DNA from: Lysobacteraceae bacterium
Lineage (GTDB): Bacteria > Pseudomonadota > Gammaproteobacteria > Nitrococcales > AK92
Assembly (NCBI GenBank): GCA_012523465.1
Contig: JAAYIK010000012.1
Coordinates: 1 to 64,000, forward strand
Length of the DNA stretch: 64,000 bases
Direction of reading: 5' to 3'
The position numbers and the translations under genes were made by a program. This document shows, one piece after another, positions 43,873-61,615 of this stretch; within the stretch, counting starts at the first letter, position 1, and each line of letters starts with the position of its first letter. The notes beneath the pieces are model-generated. The model worked only from the letters and a program-made list of their open reading frames with translations. It did not search any database and was not told the DNA's origin.

Positions 43873-44156
43873 GCGACGAAGTGCATATCTCCAGCCTGCT
43901 CATCCACGTCAGACCCCAGCACCTGCCGGACCTTGCCGCGCGCCTGACCGGCCGCCCCGGGGTGGAAATCCACGCCCGGGATCCCCGCGGCAAGCTGGTC
44001 CTAGTGCTGGAAACCAAAAGCGAGCTGCAAATCACCGCGATCATCGATTTCATCGAGCGGCAACCCGGCGTGCTCGCCGTGAGCATGTCCTATCACCAAG
44101 TGGAACGCGCCGACCTGCTGGCGCAGGAGAGTCAAGATGGACCTGACGCGCCGTGA
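43869..44156 (+). CDS. napD: NapD, chaperone for the NapA Tat signal
   Basis: 95 residues. Conserved [20 protein letters not shown] at the start and [12 protein letters not shown] near the end mark the family. NapD binds the twin-arginine signal peptide of NapA and holds back export until the molybdenum cofactor is in place. It overlaps napF by 4 bases and napA by 20 bases, so translation of all three is linked. Confidence 0.92.
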
Positions 44157-46640
44157 CCTGATCAAGCTGGCGGCCGCCAGCACCGCCGCGGCGGCCGGCG
44201 GCATCTCGCTGCCGGCCCTGGGCCAGAACGTGATCACCTCGTCCGAGTACACCCGCCTGCAATGGGACAAGGCGCCCTGCCGCTTCTGCGGCACCGGCTG
44301 CAGCGTCAACGTCGCCACCCGCGACAATCAGGTCGTCGCCACCCACGGCGACATCCTCTCGCCGGTCAACCGCGGCATCAACTGCATCAAGGGTTACTTC
44401 CTCTCCAAGATCATGTATGGAGCGGATCGGCTCACCCAGCCGCTGCTGCGGATGCGCAACGGCAGGTTCCACAAGGAAGGCGAGTTCACCCCGGTCAGCT
44501 GGGAGCAGGCCTTCGACATCATGGCCGAGAAGTTCAAGCAGGCCCTGCGTGACAAGGGCCCCTCCGCGGTCGGCATCTTCGGCTCCGGCCAGTGGACCAT
44601 CTGGGAAGGCTATACCGCGCTCAAGCTGTTCAAGGCCGGGTTCCGCACCAACAACGTTGACCCCAACGCCCGCCATTGCATGGCCTCGGCCGCCTACGCC
44701 TTCATGCGCACCTTTGGCATGGACGAGCCGATGGGCTGCTACGACGACATCGAGGCCGCCGACGCCTTCGTACTCTGGGGCTCCAACATGGCGGAGATGC
44801 ACCCCATCCTCTGGACCCGCGTCGCCGACCGGCGGCTGTCGGCGCCGGGCACCCGGGTGGCGGTCCTGTCCACCTTCGAGCACCGCTCCTTCGAGCTGGC
44901 CGACCTGCCCATCATCTTCGCCCCGCAATCAGATCTGGCCATCGCCAACTACATCGCCCGCTACATCATCGAGAAGGGCGCGGTCAACGAGGAGTTCGTC
45001 AAGAAACACACCAAGTTCAAGCTGGGCAACACCGACATAGGCTACGGCCTGCGCGCCGAGCATCCCCTGGAGCGGGCGGCCGCCAACGCCCACGATCCCG
45101 GCGGCGCCAAGGACATCAGCTTCGAGGACTATGCCGAGTTCGTGCGCCGGTACGACGCCGAGACCTTCAGCCGCATCTCGGGCGTGCCCAGGCACAAGCT
45201 GGACGCCCTGGCCGAGCTGTACGCCGACCCCGACGTCCGGGTCATGTCCTTTTGGACCATGGGCTTCAACCAGCACACCCGCGGCGTCTGGGCCAACCAC
45301 CTGGTCTACAACCTGCATCTGTTGACCGGCAAGATCTCCACCCCAGGCAATAGCCCCTTCTCGCTGACCGGGCAGCCCTCGGCCTGCGGCACCACGCGCG
45401 AGGTGGGCACCTTCGCCCATCGCCTGCCAGCCGACCTGATGGTCGACAATCCGGAGCACCGCGCCATCGCCGAGCGCATCTGGAAGCTGCCGCCGGGCAC
45501 CATCCCCAGCGAGCCCGGTTTCCACGCCGTCGAGATGAATCGCAAGCTCAGGGACGGCGAGCTCAACGCCTACTGGGTGCAGGTCAACAACAACGGCCAG
45601 GCCGCGGCCAACATCAACGAGGAGCTGATCCCGGGCTACCGCAACCCGGACAACTTCATCGTCGTCTCCGACGCCTACCCCACCGTGACCACCCAACTGG
45701 CCGACCTCATCCTGCCGGCGGCCATGTGGGTGGAGAAGGAAGGGGCCTACGGCAACGCCGAGCGGCGCACCCAGTTCTGGCGCCAGCTGGTGCAGGCGCC
45801 CGGCGAGGCGCGCGCTCCGACCTCTGGCAGCTCATGGAGTTCTCCAAGCGCTTCAGGACCGAGGAGGTCTGGCCGCAGAAGCTGCTCGCCAAGGCGCCGG
45901 AGTACCGGGGCAAGACGCTGTTCGACGTGCTGTTCAGAAACGGCCAGGTGGATCGCTTCCCCCTCAGCGACATCAAGCCCGGCTATCGCAACCACGAGTC
46001 CGAGGCCTTCGGCTTCTACGTCCAGAAAGGCTTGTTCGAGGAATACGCCTCCTTCGGCCGCGGCCACGGCCACGACCTGGCCCCCTTCGAGCGTTACCAC
46101 GAGGAGCGCGGCCTGCGCTGGCCGGTGGTCGACGGCAAGGAAACCCTCTGGCGCTACAAGGAAGGCTACGACCCCTACGTCAAGCCGGGCGCCGGCTGGG
46201 AGTTCTACGGCGAGCCGGATGGCCGCGCCAACATCTACGCCCTGCCCTACGAACCGCCGGCGGAGGCGCCGGACGAGGAATACCCGTTCTGGCTGGTCAC
46301 CGGCCGCGTCCTCGAGCACTGGCACTCGGGCTCCATCACGCGGCGCGTCCCCGAACTCCACCGCGCCTACCCGAACGCGCAGGTCTTCATGCATCCGGAA
46401 GACGCCCGCGCGCTGGGGCTGCGGCGTGGCTCCGAAGTGCGCGTCGTCAGCCGCCGCGGCGAGATCCGCACCCGGGTCGAGACCCGCGGCCGCAACAAGC
46501 CGCCCAAGGGCGTGGTGTATGTGCCCTGGTTCGATTCCAGCCAGCTGATCAACAAGGTCACACTGGACGCAACCGACCCGATCTCCAAACAGACCGACTA
46601 CAAGAAGTGCGCCAGCAAGATCGTTCCGGTGCCGTTGTAA
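44137..46640 (+). pseudogene. napA: NapA, periplasmic nitrate reductase catalytic subunit, frameshifted
   Basis: Twin-arginine signal RRDLIKLAA (residues 5-13). [4Fe-4S] cysteines C48, C51, C55 and C83 and the molybdenum ligand C181 (NARHCMASA) are intact. A (GC)4 tract at 45808-45815 shifts the frame after PGEAR; with (GC)3 the reading continues [13 protein letters not shown] and ends at 46640. The total length is 3n+2, so it looks like a two-base gain, and the corrected protein is about 833 residues, close to the usual 830. Both parts are well conserved, so a sequencing or assembly error is likely; otherwise the enzyme would be truncated near residue 560. Confidence 0.9.
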
Positions 46641-47880: not shown

Positions 47881-49506
47881 CTAGCCCAGCTCCCGTGCCC
47901 GCTGTCGCAGCACGAACTTCTGGATCTTGCCGGTCGAGGTCTTGGGCAGCTCGCCGAAGATCACCGTGCGAGGCGCCTTGAAGTGCGCCATGTTTTCGCG
48001 GCAGAAATCGATGATCTCCTGCTCGGTCGCCTGCATGCCGTCCTTGAGCGCGATGAAGGCGCAGGGACTCTCTCCCCATTTGGGATCCGGCCGCGCCACC
48101 ACCGCCGCCTCCAACACCGCTGGGTGGCGGTAGAGCACGTTCTCGACCTCGATGGAGGAGATGTTCTCGCCGCCCGAGATGATGATGTCCTTGGAGCGGT
48201 CGCGGATTTCGATGTAGCCGTCGGGGTGCCAGACAGCAAGGTCGCCGCTGTGGAACCAGCCGCCGCGGAAGGCTTCGTCGGTGGCCTCCTTGTTCTTGAG
48301 GTATCCCTTCATCACGTTGTTGCCGCGCATGAAGACCTCTCCCATGGTCTTGCCGTCGCGCGGCACCGGCTCCAGGGTATCGGGGTCCGCTACCATCAGC
48401 CCCTCCAGCACCTGATAGCGCACGCCCTGGCGCGCCTTGAGCTGCGCTCGCTGCTCTTCCGGCTCGGCATCCCACTCCCGGTGCCAAGCGCACACAGTAG
48501 ACGGGCCGTAGGTCTCGGTGAGACCGTAGACATGGGTCACTTCGATGCCCATGGCCTCGACCCCGGCGATGACCGCAGCTGGCGGCGCGGCGCCCGCTGT
48601 CATCGCCTTGACCGAGTGCTGCAGCTTTCGCCTGTGCTCCTCGGGCGCATTCAGCAGGCTGTTGAGCACAATGGGCGCGCCGCAGAAATGGGTCACCCCG
48701 TGCTCACTGATCGCGCTCAACACCGCTTCCGGCTGCACCTTGCGCAGGCAGACATGGGTGCCGGCGACCGCGGTCACCGCCCAGGGGAAGCACCAGCCGT
48801 TGCAATGGAACATCGGCAGCGTCCACAGATAGACCGGATGCTGCGGCAACGACCACACCAGGACGTTGCCCAGGGCGCTGAGGTAGGCGCCGCGGTGGTG
48901 GTAGACCACGCCCTTGGGCTTGCCGGTAGTGCCGGAGGTGTAGTTGAGGCTAATGGCCTCCCACTCGTCAGCCGGCCCCTGCCAGGCGAAGTCCGGGTCG
49001 CCTTCGGCGATGAAGGCTTCGTAGTCGAGCTCCCCCAGCAGCTCCCCCGCCGGCGCCAGCGGATCGTCGACATCGATCACCAGCGGCTTGCGCTCGACCA
49101 GCTCCAGGGCGCGAGCGATGGTGCCGGAGAACTCGCGGTCGGTGATCAGGGCCTTGGCCTGGCCGTGGTCCAGCATATAGGCGATGGCCTCGGGATCCAG
49201 GCGCACGTTGAGCGTGTTCAGCACCGCACCGGCCATGGGCACGCCGAAATGGGCCTCCACCATTTCGGGGATGTTGGGCAGCATGACCGCCACCGTATCG
49301 CCCTTGCCGATGCCGCGCCGGGTCAGTGCCGAGGCCAGCTGCCGACAGCGCCGGTAGGTCTCCCGCCAGGTGCGCCTCACCTCGCCATGGATGACGGCGA
49401 TGCGCTCTGGATAGACGCTGGCAGACCACTCGATGAAAGTCAGCGGTGAGAGCGGCACATAATTGGCCTGCGTGCGCTCAAGTCCCTGATCGTAAACGCT
49501 CTGCAT
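47881..49506 (-). CDS. Acyl-CoA synthetase (AMP-forming), medium/long-chain type
   Basis: 541 residues with GGAGGAG upstream of ATG. The AMP-binding motif YTSGTTGKPKGVVYHHRG is near residues 184-201, then FHCNGWCFPW, the YGLTETYGPS motif, YRDR-type hinge EIRDRSKDIIISGGENIS and a C-terminal lysine in LPKTSTGKIQKF. It activates fatty or other carboxylic acids as CoA thioesters in two steps. Chain length is not predictable. Its upstream region carries the DnaA boxes, and its 3' end faces napC across the long inverted repeat. Confidence 0.9.
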   Translation of the reverse strand: MQSVYDQGLERTQANYVPLSPLTFIEWSASVYPERIAVIHGEVRRTWRETYRRCRQLASALTRRGIGKGDTVAVMLPNIPEMVEAHFGVPMAGAVLNTLNVRLDPEAIAYMLDHGQAKALITDREFSGTIARALELVERKPLVIDVDDPLAPAGELLGELDYEAFIAEGDPDFAWQGPADEWEAISLNYTSGTTGKPKGVVYHHRGAYLSALGNVLVWSLPQHPVYLWTLPMFHCNGWCFPWAVTAVAGTHVCLRKVQPEAVLSAISEHGVTHFCGAPIVLNSLLNAPEEHRRKLQHSVKAMTAGAAPPAAVIAGVEAMGIEVTHVYGLTETYGPSTVCAWHREWDAEPEEQRAQLKARQGVRYQVLEGLMVADPDTLEPVPRDGKTMGEVFMRGNNVMKGYLKNKEATDEAFRGGWFHSGDLAVWHPDGYIEIRDRSKDIIISGGENISSIEVENVLYRHPAVLEAAVVARPDPKWGESPCAFIALKDGMQATEQEIIDFCRENMAHFKAPRTVIFGELPKTSTGKIQKFVLRQRARELG

Positions 49507-49611
49507 ATCTTCTCCTCCTTAGTACCGCCTGTGGCCGGCTTTCTACAGCCTAGACCCGGTTCCGCGAACTCGCCAGGCAGGCGCCGGCACCCGTCCCCGA
49601 GCGCTGACCGG

Positions 49612-49634
49612 TTATCCACAAAAGCTGTGGATAA
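49612..49634. promoter_or_regulatory. Inverted pair of consensus DnaA boxes
   Basis: TTATCCACA at 49612-49620 and TGTGGATAA at 49626-49634, facing each other over five bases and both exact matches to the E. coli R1-type box. They are followed by an A/T-rich stretch (GAAAAAATATGGAAA). A place for strong, cooperative DnaA binding. Confidence 0.75.
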
Positions 49635-49804
49635 CTCCGTGGAAAAAATATGGAAACAGCCCGCAAACCCGCGTCCCGTCGACATTGACAGACTTTGCGC
49701 AGAAAACGACCAGCCCGACTATCTCTATGAAAAACAGCAACTTGCAACATCAAGCTCGATGTGCTAGGTGGACGAGAGCGGGAAGCGCGGCGCTTAAGAA
49801 AAAC

Positions 49805-49813
49805 TGTGGACAA
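49805..49813. promoter_or_regulatory. Third DnaA box
   Basis: TGTGGACAA, the complement of TTGTCCACA, which also fits the strict TTRTCCACA consensus. It lies 171 bases from the inverted pair, in the same AT-rich patch. Confidence 0.6.
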
Positions 49814-49896
49814 AGTCAAGCGTTCGGCCGGCCCCGCCAGCGCGAAGCGCGCATGGCGGCGCCATTTCTCAGGCGCGGGAAGGAGCAGAAGGACAA

Positions 49897-49926
49897 GCTA
49901 GGCTGTCCTGGAGCGGACAGCCTAGC
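49897..49926 (-). terminator. Hairpin after the old-yellow-enzyme gene
   Basis: Perfect 12-bp stem GCTAGGCTGTCC / GGACAGCCTAGC with loop TGGAGC, 23 bases after the stop codon of the leftward gene at 49949. The bases that follow on the minus strand (TTGTCCTTCT) are only moderately T-rich. Confidence 0.65.
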
Positions 49927-49948
49927 AAGACAGGTTGATGGGCTCGCT

Positions 49949-51064
49949 TCAGGTCAGCACCGCCAGCGAGGCTTTGCTGAAGGGGCGTATCTCGTCGACC
50001 CGGTTGTCGCGAAGCTTGGCCAGCCACTGCGGATCCTGCAGCAGGGCACGCCCGACCGCGATCAGGTCGAACTCGTCCCTGGCCATGCGCTCGAGCAAGT
50101 CGTCGATGCCGGCCTGCTGCACCACCGCGTCGTCCGGCGCGGCGAAGGTGCCGGTGATGAAATCCTCGGTCAGCCCGACGCTGCCCACGGAGATGGTCGG
50201 CAGCCCGGTGATCTTGCGGGTCCAGCCGGCCAGGTTGAGCTCCGAGCCCGGGAATTCCGGCACCCAGAAGCGGCGGGTGGAGGCGTGGAAGATGTCGACC
50301 CCGGCCCGCACCAGCGGCAGCAGGAAGCGCTCCAGCTCCTGCGGGGTCCAGGCCAGCTTGGCCTCGTAATCCTGCTGCTTCCACTGCGAGTAGCGGAACA
50401 CGATGGCGAAGTCCTGTCCGGTGGCGTCGCGCACCGCCTCGATGATCTCGATGGCGAAGCGCAGGCGGTTTTCCAGCGAGCCGCCGTACTCGTCGTCGCG
50501 GACGTTGGTGCCCTCCCAGAAGAACTGGTCGATCAGGTAACCGTGGGCACCGTGCAGCTCGACCCCATCGAAGCCCAGCGCCTTGGCGTCGGCCGCCGCC
50601 TGGGCAAAGGCCTGCACCACGTCCTGGATGTCCTGCCTGGTCATGGCCCGCCCGTTGGGGCGTCCCGGCTTGTACAGCCCGCTGGGACTGTAGCCGGGCA
50701 CGCTGGGATCAGGCTCGGTGCCTTCGCGCCGCACCGCGCCGACATGCCAAAGCTGCGGGATGATGGCGGCACCCGCGGCATGGACCTCCTCCACCACCCG
50801 CCGCCAGCCGGCCAGCGCTTCCTCGCCGTGGAAGGCCGGCACATTGGGGTAGCCGTTGGCGGCCGGATGATTGACGGTCGTGCCCTCGGTGATGATGAGG
50901 CCAACCCCGCCTTCGGCGCGGCGCCGGTAGTAGGCAGCGACCTCGGGGCCGGGCACATTGCCCGGCGAGAACCTGCGGGTCATGGGCGCCATGGCGACAC
51001 GGTTGCGCAGGCGCAGCGACTTGCACTCGAACGGTCGAAACAGAGGACCGAGATCCAACGTCAT
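49949..51064 (-). CDS. NADH:flavin oxidoreductase, old yellow enzyme family
   Basis: 371 residues from ATG at 51064 (GAGGAAG upstream; an earlier in-frame start at 51094 lacks support). FMN TIM barrel with LRLRNRVAMAPMTRRF near residues 18-33, the active-site HGAHGYLIDQFFW and the NRLRFAIEIIEAVR segment, and VGRALLQDPQW at the end. It probably reduces activated C=C bonds of enones; the substrate is unknown. It is monocistronic and lies between the CPBP protease gene and the DnaA-box region. Confidence 0.87.
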   Translation of the reverse strand: MTLDLGPLFRPFECKSLRLRNRVAMAPMTRRFSPGNVPGPEVAAYYRRRAEGGVGLIITEGTTVNHPAANGYPNVPAFHGEEALAGWRRVVEEVHAAGAAIIPQLWHVGAVRREGTEPDPSVPGYSPSGLYKPGRPNGRAMTRQDIQDVVQAFAQAAADAKALGFDGVELHGAHGYLIDQFFWEGTNVRDDEYGGSLENRLRFAIEIIEAVRDATGQDFAIVFRYSQWKQQDYEAKLAWTPQELERFLLPLVRAGVDIFHASTRRFWVPEFPGSELNLAGWTRKITGLPTISVGSVGLTEDFITGTFAAPDDAVVQQAGIDDLLERMARDEFDLIAVGRALLQDPQWLAKLRDNRVDEIRPFSKASLAVLT

Positions 51065-51140
51065 GTCTTCCTCTTCGAATTCTTGCTTAACCACAGCCGG
51101 GAAACATTAAAGGGAATGCCGCAGAATTGCACCGTTCGGG

Positions 51141-55137: not shown

Positions 55138-55479
55138 ATGTACAAGATGCCACAAATCACGCCAATCAACGTAGCGACGCTCTACAACCGGGCGCAGGCC
55201 TCGGCCAACTACGAGGCGGCGCTGTCTTGGGAGCGGTACGCCAACAAGCTCAAGAAGCGCCTCCAGGCCGCCAACGAGACCATTGAGCAGCAGCGCGCCC
55301 TGATCGAGCGGCTACAAAACGAGCTTCAGAAGACGAAGGAAAACCTCAAGGGAAGGATAGCGGTCTCTAAGGCTTTGATGGCACAAAGGGATGCACTCAT
55401 AAAGAATCCTTCTATCTCTAAGGAAGAACTTAAAAAGATAGGTGAGGAGATAATTGATCAAGAACTCGGCAGCAAGTAA
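55138..55479 (+). CDS. Coiled-coil protein in the conjugation-gene relic
   Basis: 113 residues; GGGAGGTGA five bases before ATG. After a short N terminus it is mostly one long coiled coil (about residues 30-90: LKKRLQAANETIEQQRALIE and onward), rich in Lys/Glu/Gln. The second half is AT-rich at DNA level, unlike the rest of the window. Convergent with the traY fragment, with a shared two-way terminator between them. No family recognised; small coiled-coil ORFs are common in conjugative elements. Confidence 0.6.
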   Translation: MYKMPQITPINVATLYNRAQASANYEAALSWERYANKLKKRLQAANETIEQQRALIERLQNELQKTKENLKGRIAVSKALMAQRDALIKNPSISKEELKKIGEEIIDQELGSK

Positions 55480-55511
55480 TGCTTAAGAGTTTTTACTCCT
55501 AAGCATTACTT
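55474..55511. terminator. Two-way terminator between the coiled-coil gene and traY fragment
   Basis: Stem AAGTAATGCTTA / TAAGCATTACTT (12 bp), then a one-base internal mismatch, a second 4-bp stem GAGT/ACTC and a TTTT loop. The stop codon of the left gene is inside the stem. TTTTC follows on the plus side; the minus side has AAGTAATGC..., also T-poor. Confidence 0.75.
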
Positions 55512-55529
55512 TTCATCCTCACCTTTATC

Positions 55530-57338
55530 CTATTTTCCAAGGTTTTCGTTTACCTCATCTTTAAAGGTTTTTCTTTGACGCTCCTTTTGCACAGCATCCT
55601 GCTGTGTACGTCCGCTCCTAGTAGCACTACTTTCAGCAATCTTGTGATCCGTCGGCACCCCCAGCGCGGCGGCCTGCTCGGCGTCGGTGCGGGCACGGCG
55701 TGTGCTGCCGCCGCCGCCACCATCAGGGCCACCAGCCTTGTTGCCGTTAGGCACGCCGGGATCGCCGGTGCGGTTGATCGAAAGCGCACTCTGTGAAGCG
55801 GTGCCGGAGCTATGCACCGCCGCAATGACGCCAGCGCGCACATTACTCTCGGCTTCCTTCTCACCCAGCTGCTCGCTGCCGCCGCCAAGCCAGCGCATCG
55901 CCCGCTCCGCAATCAAGCTAATGAGTTCAAAGGAGCGGTGGGCAGTCACCACGATCATATGCACCATGATGCCGATCATAAAGATCGCCCCGACGATGCC
56001 GGTCGTGTGCTCACCATTGAGTAGCTCATAGACCGTGGGGATAAAAGTCAACTTGAGGAACTTAAAGAGGGCATGCATCACCAGCATGGCAAGATACAGC
56101 CCGAACAGCATCAAGGTCGGGCGCGAGAGGACATTGAGCAGCAGCATGTAGCCGTTGCGGGCATGGTGCCCCGCAATCCCCTCGCCTTCCGGCATTGAGT
56201 GCGCCGCCGCCCAAATCGGGGCGGCCACCACGGACTCGACCACCATCATGATCCGGCCCGCAATACCGAAGTACCACAGGATGTACGGCACCATCGGCAC
56301 GTAATAGGCGAGCGTGCCGCCGAAGGCCATCATCGGGAACCAGGTCAGCAGGACGATGACCCAGAACTTTTCCATAATCTTGGCGATGGCATTGAGCGAG
56401 CCATCCAGCCCGGTCAGCGAGGACGCCAATTTGACGTAGAAGGTATCCTGTGCGCCCGTGGTTATCGCCAGAAGACCCAGATAGGCAATCATGACCGCCC
56501 AGCCGATATTAAGAATCTGGTGCCCCATGTCCATGATGGCAAGCTCTGGGGCTTCGCGATCGTTCATAAAGGAAGTGATCTTCTCCGCCAGCCAGGGCGC
56601 AAAGTTGATCGCGCTTGTGACCTTATCGAGCGCTTTCGAGAGAATCCCGTCATCACCGCTCATCGAGGTAATGCCGGTCTGCTGCGTGGCAAAGGCACGG
56701 CTTCGCGCGCTGCCGCTAAGCAAATCGTAAACATCATCGGCGACATAGCGCTCGAAGAAGTTGTTGACCCGACTCATCGTCTGGGCCAAGCCTTCCTGCA
56801 CGCGCAGCGCCTTGATCTTGCCAATATCGGGCGCATCGATGGTAATGCCCGGCACCACGAAACGCTTGAGGGTTTCGTTGAGGCGGTTGTTCTCGATGTA
56901 CCAGGCGCCAGCCAGAATGAAGCCAAACTCCTGCGAGCGGTGCGTGAAGTCATCGAGCCGCTGCTGATTACGCGCATCGACGGCCTGGTAAATGCTGGAG
57001 GCAAGCCGCCCCATCGCCTGCTCGTAGTTGTCCGCCACCCGCTCGATAAGGCCCCGGTGCGCTTCGTGGAATTCCGACAGCGACCGCCCGCTGCGTGCTG
57101 CCGCCTGCGCCAGCGGATTGAGCGCTCGAATCATCCGCTCCAGGGCGTCCTTCTGCTGTTGGTGGACACTGGCGAGCTGATCCGAGAGCACATCAACGCC
57201 ACCGCTTACCCCCGATTGGGCAAAAGTGGGCGTGACCAGCTTAAGCTGAATGCTGCCGCAGGCTCCCGGCTCAATGCCGGACTTCTCCAGCCGCAGGCCC
57301 CGCTCGCCTGACCGTTCCTGCCGCTGGCGCTCGGCCAC
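55530..57338 (-). pseudogene. DotA/TraY-family conjugation protein, N-terminally truncated
   Basis: 602 open codons, with DotA/TraY homology from about codon 20 (57281) to the end. Periplasmic N-terminal part (QQQKDALERMIRALNPLAQA), then a cluster of membrane helices with the family's conserved FPMMAFGGTLAYYVPMVPYI, AAPIWAAAHSMPEGEGIAG and YMLLLNVLSRPTLMLFGLYL segments, and a hydrophilic Gly/Ser/Arg-rich tail. TraY/DotA is the large inner-membrane protein of type IVB secretion/IncI-type conjugation. The expected signal peptide and first part are missing; near 57281-57345 the frame runs into host-like DNA. No other transfer gene is present. Confidence 0.8.
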
Positions 57339-58935: not shown

Positions 58936-59535
58936 TTATTGATAGCTCAGCCGGCCCGCAAATGCACGCGCCAGGGTGCCGCGATCGATGTACTCCAGCT
59001 CCCCTCCCAGCGGCACGCCGTGAGCGATGCGGGTAGCCTTGACGCCATGCGCGCGCGCCATCTCGGCAATGTACTGCGCCGTGGCCTCGCCTTCCACCGT
59101 CGGGTTGGTGGCCAGGATGACCTCCTCGACCTCGCCACCCTGCAAGCGCGCCTCCAGCTGATTGAGGCCCAGCTCGGTCGGCCCAATGCCGTCCAGCGGC
59201 GACAGGCGCCCCTTGAGCACGAAGTACAGCCCGCGGAAGTCAGTGGCCTGCTCCAGGGCATAGACATCGGCCGGGCTTTCCACCACGCACAGGACGCTGC
59301 GATCGCGCTTGGGATTAGCGCAAATCTGGCAGGTTTCCTGCTCCGACAGCGTGCGGCACTGGCGGCACTCGCCGATCCGCTCGATGGCCTGGAGCAGGGC
59401 CTCGGCTAGCCGCCGCCCGCCGGGCCGGTCGCGCTGCAGCAGCTGCAGGGCCATGCGCTGCGCCGACTTGGGCCCGACCCCGGGCAACACCCGCAAGGCT
59501 TCGATCAGGTTCTGCAGTAGCGGAGAAAAGGCCAT
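58936..59535 (-). CDS. recR: Recombination protein RecR
   Basis: 199 residues (E. coli 201). A helix-hairpin-helix at the start ([19 protein letters not shown]), the C4 zinc finger CRQC...CQIC around residues 57-72, and a Toprim domain with [16 protein letters not shown] and [19 protein letters not shown]. RecR with RecO/RecF loads RecA onto gapped DNA. Last gene of the dnaX-ybaB-recR operon, 14 bases after ybaB. Confidence 0.95.
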
Positions 59536-59549
59536 GCCGCCCGGCCCGC

Positions 59550-59873
59550 TCAGAACGGCAGCTTCATGCCCGGGGGCAGCGGCAGGCCGGCGGTCATCGC
59601 CGCCATCTTCTCCTGGCTTTCCCGCTCCACCTTGCGCACGGCGTCGTTGATGGCGGCAGCGACCAGGTCCTCGACCATCTCCTTGTCGTCCTGGAACAGC
59701 TCCGGATCGATGGTGACGCGGCGCACCTCGTGCCGGCCGGTCATGATCACGGTCACCATGCCGCCGCCCGCTTCGCCCGTCACCTCCATGTTGGCGATCT
59801 CTTCCTGCGCCCGCTGCATTTCCTGCTGCAGCTTCTGCGCTTGTTTCATCAGATTGCCCAATCCACCTCGCAT
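59550..59873 (-). CDS. ybaB: YbaB/EbfC nucleoid-associated protein
   Basis: 107 residues. Typical opening [21 protein letters not shown], then [24 protein letters not shown] and a [14 protein letters not shown] helix. It forms tweezer-shaped DNA-binding dimers. It lies 23 bases after dnaX and 14 before recR, the standard gene order. Confidence 0.95.
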
Positions 59874-59896
59874 GTTCGGCTCCTTGTCTTACGGCC

Positions 59897-61615
59897 TCAG
59901 TTGATGGGTTCTATGGAATTAGGCACCAGCTCCGCCGAGAACACCTTGCGCATAGCCTCCACATTGGGATCCTGCTCTATCGTTTCGACGGCCTTGCGCT
60001 GCAGCTCGGCGCGCTTTTGCTCGGCACGCTCGGCAGGGGTTTCATGGCGCGGCTTGGCCACCTCCAGCGCCAGTGCGACAGGCGCGCCGAAATACTCGGC
60101 CAGCGCCGCCTCTAGCCGTTGGACAATGGCATCGACCCGCAAGTGCTCGTATTCGGGGGCCAGGTGCAGAGTGATGCGGTTGCCGCTGCGGCCACCCCAG
60201 GCGCAATGCATGGCCAGCTGGCGCGGCAGGCCGTTGAGGTCGAGCCGCTCGACCAGCTGGATCCAGTCGACTGCGCCGCCCTCGTCGGCGACAGGCGCGG
60301 CCGGCTCCGGCCGCCCTGCCGACGACACCGATGCGGCCGGCGGCGTCGCCGGCGCGGATGCGGCCCGCGTCGGTGCGGGTCTTGCTGCCGGCACGGGCGC
60401 GGCCTGCGGCGGAGCCGCCGGCGCGGCCGGGGCCGTCTGCTGCTTGCCGGTCGCAGCCGGGGCCAGCGCCGCCCGCACGCTGGCCAGCGGCGACTGCTTG
60501 GGGCCGGCCGGTGCCGGCGGTACCACGCTGCCGGCCGGGCGAAACGCCAGCATTCGCAGCAACACCATCTCGAAGCCGCTGCGCGGATCGGGCGACAGCG
60601 GCAAATCCCGCCGACCGGTGAGGGCGATCTGGTAGTACAGCTGCACGTCCTCCGGCGTCAGCCGCTCGGCCAGCGCCCGCAGCCGGGGGTAGCCGGGCTC
60701 GTCCTCCGTCAAGCTGGCAGGGACGGTCTGCAGCAAGGCCAGCTTGTGCAGCACCAGCAGCAGGTCGGCCAGGGCGTCGGAAAAATCCGGCGCCCGCTCC
60801 GCCAGGCGCGCAACCACTGCCAGCACCTGGGCGCCGTCCTCCTCGGCCAGCGCCTCCAGCAGATCGAACACGAACTCGCGCTCGATGCTGCCGAGCATGC
60901 TGCGCACCTCGGCCTCCCGCACTGCGCCGCCGCCGTAGGCGATGGCCTGGTCCAGTAGGCTGAGCGCGTCGCGCAGGCTGCCATCGGCGGCGCGGGCGAC
61001 CTCGGCCACCGCGCCAGCCTCCCAGGCGATGCCTTCGGCGTCCAGGATCTTCTGCAAGTGGGCCGCGATCTGCTGCACCGACAGCCGTTTCAGGTTGAAC
61101 TGCAGGCAGCGGGACAGGATGGTAACCGGGATTTTCTGCGGATCGGTGGTCGCCAGCAGGAACTTGACGTGCGGCGGCGGCTCCTCCAGCGTCTTCAACA
61201 GGGCGTTGAAGCTGTGCGTGGAGAGCATGTGGATCTCGTCGATGAGATAGACCTTGTAGCGGCCCCGGGTCGGCGCGTACTGCACATTGTCGAGGAGCTC
61301 GCGGGTGTCCTCGACCTTGGTGCGGGAGGCGGCGTCGACCTCGATCAGATCGACGAAACGTCCCTCGGCGATCTCGCGACAGGCGGCGCAGCTACCGCAG
61401 GGAGTGGAGCTTACGCCCTGCTCGCAGTTGAGGCACTTGGCGATGATGCGAGCGATGGTGGTCTTACCGACCCCGCGGGTGCCGGTGAATAGGTAGGCAT
61501 GGTGCAAGCGACCGGTATCCAGACCGTTGACGAGGGCCTGCAGCACATGCTCCTGCCCCACCATCTCGGCGAAACTGCGCGGCCGCCACTTGCGGGCGAG
61601 GACCTGGTAGCTCAT
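59897..61615 (-). CDS. dnaX: DNA polymerase III subunits gamma/tau, DnaX
   Basis: 572 residues. Clamp-loader AAA domain: Walker [15 protein letters not shown] (near 45-58), zinc cysteines at CLNCEQG...CGSCAAC, DEAH-type LIDEIHMLS near 128, and [14 protein letters not shown]. Domains II and III follow, then an Ala/Pro-rich linker (about 375-425) and the tau-like C-terminal domain ([19 protein letters not shown]). No slippery A-run for gamma production was noticed. First coding gene after the SRP RNA. Confidence 0.95.

Follow-up and report, generated by a model that had tools for sequence, protein, structure and literature searches.

A putative DnaA-reactivating sequence of extended type in a Lysobacteraceae genome and its counterparts in Gammaproteobacteria

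Introduction

What could a group of DnaA boxes be doing in an AT-rich patch between two genes that have no evident link to replication? The locus in question belongs to a 64,000-nucleotide stretch from the genome of a Lysobacteraceae bacterium, the whole of which is hereafter called the window. A sequence-only reading of the window had pointed out two exact boxes facing each other and another one further on, and had proposed a site of the datA or DARS (DnaA-reactivating sequence) kind, a DnaA-regulated promoter or a captured replication origin. The function of DARS has been worked out in E. coli. The comparison of DARS in PMC8682772 takes in species close to E. coli and reaches as far as Vibrio and Shewanella, and similar sequences are said to occur in many proteobacteria (PMC10380432). 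Here the element at 49612-49813 is described together with its counterparts in other genomes, and it is argued from their sequences that it is quite probably a DARS of an extended type, about 200 bp long.

Organization of the element

The element is intergenic, with the ends of the flanking genes at 49506 and 49949. Box I (49612-49620, plus strand) is an exact TTATCCACA, and box II (49626-49634), an exact TTATCCACA on the minus strand, faces it across 5 bp, just as the pair had been described in the sequence-only reading. Overlooked at that time was box III (49638-49646, minus strand), which reads CGTGGAAAA on the plus strand with two mismatches against TGTGGATAA, lies 3 bp from box II and has the same orientation. 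The core therefore consists of three boxes, not two, and positions 49612-49646 form the array I-N5-II-N3-III, in which box I points the other way from boxes II and III.

The distal box (box IV, 49805-49813, minus strand, TTGTCCACA on that strand) is oriented as boxes II and III; it stands at +193, counted here and below from the first base of box I, and starts 171 bp past the end of box II. A third box had indeed been placed there before; it has one mismatch to TTATCCACA and falls outside the pattern TTWTNCACA, and it fits TGTGNAYAA. The patch is AT-rich within GC-rich DNA, as claimed, with a GC content of 50.9% at 49611-49830 against 67.9% for the whole window, and equally low values are found in 19 of 3189 sliding 220-bp windows. 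The earlier observation is confirmed, yet it understates what is present.

Core copies in the source genome

The source genome (G000) is a draft of 2,995,147 bases in 35 contigs. A chance cluster would gain some credit from the fact that a single TTWTNCACA is not rare, 0.51 matches being expected in the window; the window has three, a number reached in one of 100 shuffles. Genome-wide, TTATCCACA occurs 17 times as opposed to 7 occurrences of the reversed control pattern, and 8 of these 17 form four facing pairs, in every case with a gap of exactly 5. When exact facing pairs with gaps from 0 to 30 were collected from 59 genomes, 21 of the 23 pairs had gap 5, and the remaining two, both in G000 and with gap 17, turned out to be boxes I and III (5 + 9 + 3) with a weaker box II between them. 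Chance was rejected on account of these fixed gaps and is, given also the conservation and the flank described below, practically negligible as an explanation.

Six copies of the core were found in G000 with up to three mismatches to the core pattern. The accessory parts described below are present in three of them (the window copy, C19:240176 and C19:263772) and absent from the other three (L166, L167 and L168), a point against the DARS reading, since a core by itself may serve some different purpose. At L166 (4478-4508, corresponding to C30:39477) a perfect core without accessory motifs is located about 140 bp ahead of a UmuD-like/UmuC-like gene pair.

Several strong boxes in a non-coding patch and six core copies in one genome would also suit a titration or storage site, whose boxes merely bind DnaA and shrink the free pool without nucleotide exchange, and PMC12371093 makes a case for dispersed boxes titrating DnaA in E. 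coli. Titration, however, requires no fixed head-to-head gap, no fixed box III and no set distances to Fis-like, IHF-like and distal-box sites, all of which are conserved in position, and it is considered an unlikely explanation.

Conservation of the core

The core pattern searched was TTATCCACA-N5-TGTGGATAA-N3-TGTGG with at most three mismatches. Conservation of the boxes among relatives, which the sequence-only reading had named as the point on which its proposal could fall, was found: the core is present in 57 of 59 relatives, where the reversed control produced a single hit overall, and in 317 of 370 genomes of the class, where the reversed control was almost empty. A phylum-wide draw yielded the core in 208 of 396 genomes, which a hand count from the table divides into 153 of 171 genomes belonging to the class and 55 of 225 from elsewhere.

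The position of the core on the chromosome varies among complete relatives. Six genomes of one genus (G008, G011, G014, G017, G023 and G026) have two cores each, which by hand estimate are some 15-19% and 46-49% of the chromosome away from dnaA. Another relative, G021, has 12 core copies, 10 of them between 2.14 and 2.29 Mb; at least 8 of the 12 (L184-L191) lie within longer repeats, dispersed in the genome, which take in the flank and in most cases a distal TGTGCATAA as well, and the copies in this genome would represent DARS-like elements multiplied as repeats.

The distal box in related genomes

Same-orientation boxes with at most one mismatch are concentrated at a particular distance from the core. 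In the 40 relatives' sites that extend far enough, 15 such boxes lie at +186 to +209 compared with 11 in about 735 other positions, and in 28 class loci the corresponding numbers are 11 and 5, while opposite-orientation boxes at +186 to +209 are found in neither set. The distal-box zones, covering 25 positions, were set before 120 extra sites were fetched, 117 of which were usable; these gave 61 hits in the preset positions and 13 in the other 330, with the main peak at +200 to +207 and a minor one at +190 to +194, and 56 of the 117 sites lack a box of this kind at any preset position.

The box at 49805-49813 belongs to the element: boxes of the same orientation recur in relatives near +193 or +203, and the sites fetched after the zones had been set confirm this. 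Such a box at a fixed distance, recurring in many related bacteria, may be a previously undescribed part of sites of this kind. The two peaks suggest that distal boxes are helically phased (+193, +203 and about +225); Rayleigh figures are dominated by the main peak and hardly vary with the assumed period, and they are not counted as a test of phasing.

The conserved flank with Fis-like and IHF-like sites

Downstream of the core the window contains an accessory flank (49651-49734, plus strand) whose best part is TGGAAACAGCCCGCAAACCCGCGTC and which matches a model built from 41 relatives' sites, namely an ungapped matrix from +35 to +110 with the window and E. coli excluded. In register, the window flank is the best of 1354 positions at its locus, and its score was reached in 0 of 5000 shuffles and 0 of 2000 dinucleotide shuffles. 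On the same matrix 15 of 30 class loci rank below 0.01, and in dinucleotide shuffles 16 of 30 fall below 0.01.

The conserved columns +86 G, +90 A, +96 T and +100 C fit the Fis consensus GnnYAnnnnnTRnnC as given in PMC8682772; they were derived from the relatives and identified as Fis-like only later, after further sites had been viewed. The window has GCGCAGAAAACGACC at +85 (49697-49711, no strand assigned), one mismatch from this consensus. Exact matches in 145 further sites number 30 at +86 and 9 at +85, the mean per position being 0.26. A putative IHF-like site, AAACAGCAACTTG, follows at +120 (49732-49744, plus strand), with two mismatches to WATCAANNNNTTR; it is weak here, which counts against the DARS reading, although its position is conserved in relatives. 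With at most one mismatch, IHF consensus matches in the 145 further sites number 28 at +120, 19 at +121 and 17 at +119 against a mean of 0.46, with no pile-up in reverse orientation, a count that is not a clean held-out test because the idea of the motif arose from viewing some of the later test sites.

All motifs could be scored in 147 of 150 further sites, the 150 being the 120 extra sites and the 30 class loci. A Fis-like site was found in 94 of the 147, an IHF-like site in 76 and a distal box in 82, with all three in 41 and none in 22; the rates in 879 displaced frames used as a control were 7.4%, 0.3% and 0.2%, respectively. The 41 relatives' sites have 19 Fis-like sites, 17 IHF-like sites and 21 distal boxes, with all three in 6 and none in 10. 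The sites wholly devoid of accessory motifs in both sets speak against the DARS reading. These site counts include related genomes and are not independent of each other; the 41 training and 120 extra sites were hand-picked from the core matches, with sites at the edges of contigs, overlapping second matches and a number of close relatives set aside.

For the window itself, the Fis-like, IHF-like and distal-box matches were jointly reached in 0 of 20000 shuffles. Singly, they were reached in 7.0%, 2.2% and 0.07%, and the first of these figures is a further point against the DARS reading.

Comparison with E. coli sites

The DARS1 and DARS2 regions of E. coli MG1655 were assigned by gene neighbors. 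The bioD-uvrB gap, which we take to be the location of DARS1, contains TTATCCACT-5-TGTGGATAA-3-TGTGTATTA, and TTATTCACC-5-TGTGGATAG-3-TGTGAAGAA is found upstream of mutH. The box orientations and the 5 and 3 bp spacings of both DARS regions are those of the window core, the boxes of which are closer to the box consensus than those of E. coli. A reversed box I, a common spacing and a three-box core are reported for both DARS sites in PMC5742627, and the head-to-head arrangement of boxes I and II is described as essential for ADP release in PMC10380432 and PMC8682772.

DARS1, published as a 101-bp sequence (PMC5742627), is intergenic like the window element, and its downstream flank fits the model from the window's relatives, being the best of 1570 positions on the same matrix of 41 sites with a score reached in 1 of 5000 shuffles and 0 of 2000 dinucleotide shuffles. 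It differs in lacking both a Fis-like site at +86 and a distal box between +190 and +207 (two mismatches each within the zones), which counts against the DARS reading of the window element, and it has a weak IHF-like site with two mismatches at +121 and a one-mismatch box, TGGGGATAA, at +223. The same TGGGGATAA is found in the same orientation, at +222 to +224, in DARS1 (L134) and in three loci with DARS1-like cores (L385, L386 and L387); it lies outside the published DARS1 and is possibly a decayed distal box.

DARS2, the stronger E. coli DARS, is unlike the window element in its flank, which scores nothing on the model (rank 0.25, shuffles not significant), and this too weighs against the DARS reading. 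It is described as including IHF and Fis sites plus extra DnaA boxes (PMC4245941, PMC8682772), of which boxes IV-VI were dispensable in the test published in PMC4245941. Its best IHF-like site lies at +109 and an exact Fis-consensus match at +145, the reverse of the order in the window, and a box at +211 is opposite in orientation to the window's distal box. As to sites of the DARS2 kind, the window offers a Fis-like match with one mismatch and an IHF-like match with two, in an order unlike that of DARS2, at positions strongly conserved elsewhere.

The window element, then, has in common with DARS the three boxes with box I opposed, the 5 and 3 bp spacing, the intergenic location and, as judged by sequence similarity, a DARS1-type flank, and the extended layout exactly equals neither E. 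coli DARS. From among the options put forward in the sequence-only reading, the DARS-like one is upheld by the orientations and spacings shared with DARS1 and DARS2, by the DARS1-like flank and by conservation in relatives. The E. coli site datA, compared here by description, resembles the element as proposed in being a group of DnaA boxes in non-coding DNA that has an IHF site and influences the nucleotide state of DnaA (PMC10380432). It differs in that datA turns ATP-DnaA into ADP-DnaA. Double DnaA boxes 2-3 bp apart, reported as preferred by DnaA in ChIP-seq of E. coli (PMC11317965), resemble the II-III tandem of the window with its 3 bp, but are unlike the window in having no facing box I.

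Neighboring genes

On one side of the element there is an acyl-CoA synthetase gene (47881-49506, minus strand; NCBIfam NF006020 above cut-off) and on the other an NADH:flavin oxidoreductase family gene (49949-51094, minus strand; PF00724) with its 3′ end toward the element, followed by a terminator-like hairpin (49897-49926, minus strand; weak evidence, with 0.7 such sites expected in shuffles). The neighbors had been said to have no link to replication. This holds for the genes next to the element, but at 58936-61615, about 9-12 kb off, there are recR and dnaX together with a YbaB-like ORF recognized by eye.

Box I precedes the start of the acyl-CoA synthetase gene by 105 bp, as would suit a DnaA-controlled promoter at which bound DnaA switches the neighboring gene in step with the cell cycle. 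Copies elsewhere are found upstream of priA in five genomes (G000, G001, G002, G003 and G007), an arrangement that would also fit transcription control and to that extent counts against the DARS reading, or beside the umuD/umuC-like pair mentioned above, and PMC11317965 describes the E. coli DnaA regulon as small and made up of replication and repair genes. Nevertheless, none of 80 loci in other genomes that carry acyl-CoA synthetase homologues had the core, even with 4 mismatches allowed, a promoter scan revealed no sigma-70-like promoter in 49400-50000, and the flanking genes vary from copy to copy, those of other relatives including dusB or zapE. Control of the acyl-CoA synthetase gene as a conserved role and a sigma-70 promoter at the element were rejected on the first and second of these results, respectively, and a DnaA-controlled promoter is regarded as very unlikely.

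In the other species of the genus (G001), the best acyl-CoA synthetase orthologue, with 82% identity over 208 residues and at the edge of contig C94, is separated from a core copy by about 5 kb that hold further genes, two of them ABC-transporter-like by eye; this copy has a distal box TGTGGACAA at +193, the same as in the window.

Two further features of the window were observed. A napA-like molybdopterin oxidoreductase gene at 44137-46640 is seemingly frameshifted, with the N-terminal and catalytic domains in the first frame (to 46548) and the dinucleotide-binding domain in another (45726-46640), which would be either a sequencing error or a broken gene. The most AT-rich patch, at 55138-57338 with GC down to 37% at about 55360-55400, adjoins a gene of the DotA/TraY family (NCBIfam TIGR04346 above cut-off), whose members are components of conjugation or type IVB secretion systems, and this suggests a mobile-element remnant.

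DnaA machinery of the source genome

An AT-rich patch carrying DnaA boxes could also be a captured or secondary replication origin. However, dnaA and dnaN, with three TTATCCACA boxes of their own, are on contig C20, no initiator gene was recognized in the window, neither dnaA/dnaN nor another origin marker is adjacent to the element, and the same element turns up in several copies per genome and across the class. The captured origin was rejected as highly improbable.

The DnaA encoded is 72% identical to that of E. coli and keeps Asp269, Arg285, Leu290 and the box-reading region (25 residues). The genome also codes for Hda and IHF-alpha, both above the cut-off, and for Fis (63% identity over 75 residues).

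Proposed mechanism and significance

As a DARS, the element would recharge DnaA by nucleotide exchange, a function suggested by its layout, as are the binding of DnaA, Fis and IHF and the looping of DNA assumed here. ADP-DnaA would occupy boxes I and II head to head and a third molecule box III, and contact between the AAA+ domains would loosen the bound ADP. The apo-DnaA released would then bind ATP, ready to start another round at oriC. Bending of the DNA by Fis at about +86 and by IHF at about +120 would bring the DnaA molecule on the distal box (+193) back to the core, where it would stabilize or time the assembly.

It is an evenly balanced proposition that a composite ancestral DnaA-recharging element of about 210 bp is common to Gammaproteobacteria, comprising the facing three-box core, Fis at +86, IHF at +120 and, at about +203 (or at +193, about one helical turn nearer), a fourth box that loops back to the core, with DARS1 and DARS2 as diverged forms and with several such elements in genomes like this one. 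A full-text literature search yielded no description recognized as this layout of Fis, IHF and distal box, which does not by itself establish its absence from print. If the proposal is true, a core that follows a single pattern in most of the class, along with a fixed layout of Fis, IHF and distal box, would mean that DNA sites generally recharge DnaA in this group; it would also implicate looping in the mechanism and offer concrete base positions for mutation.
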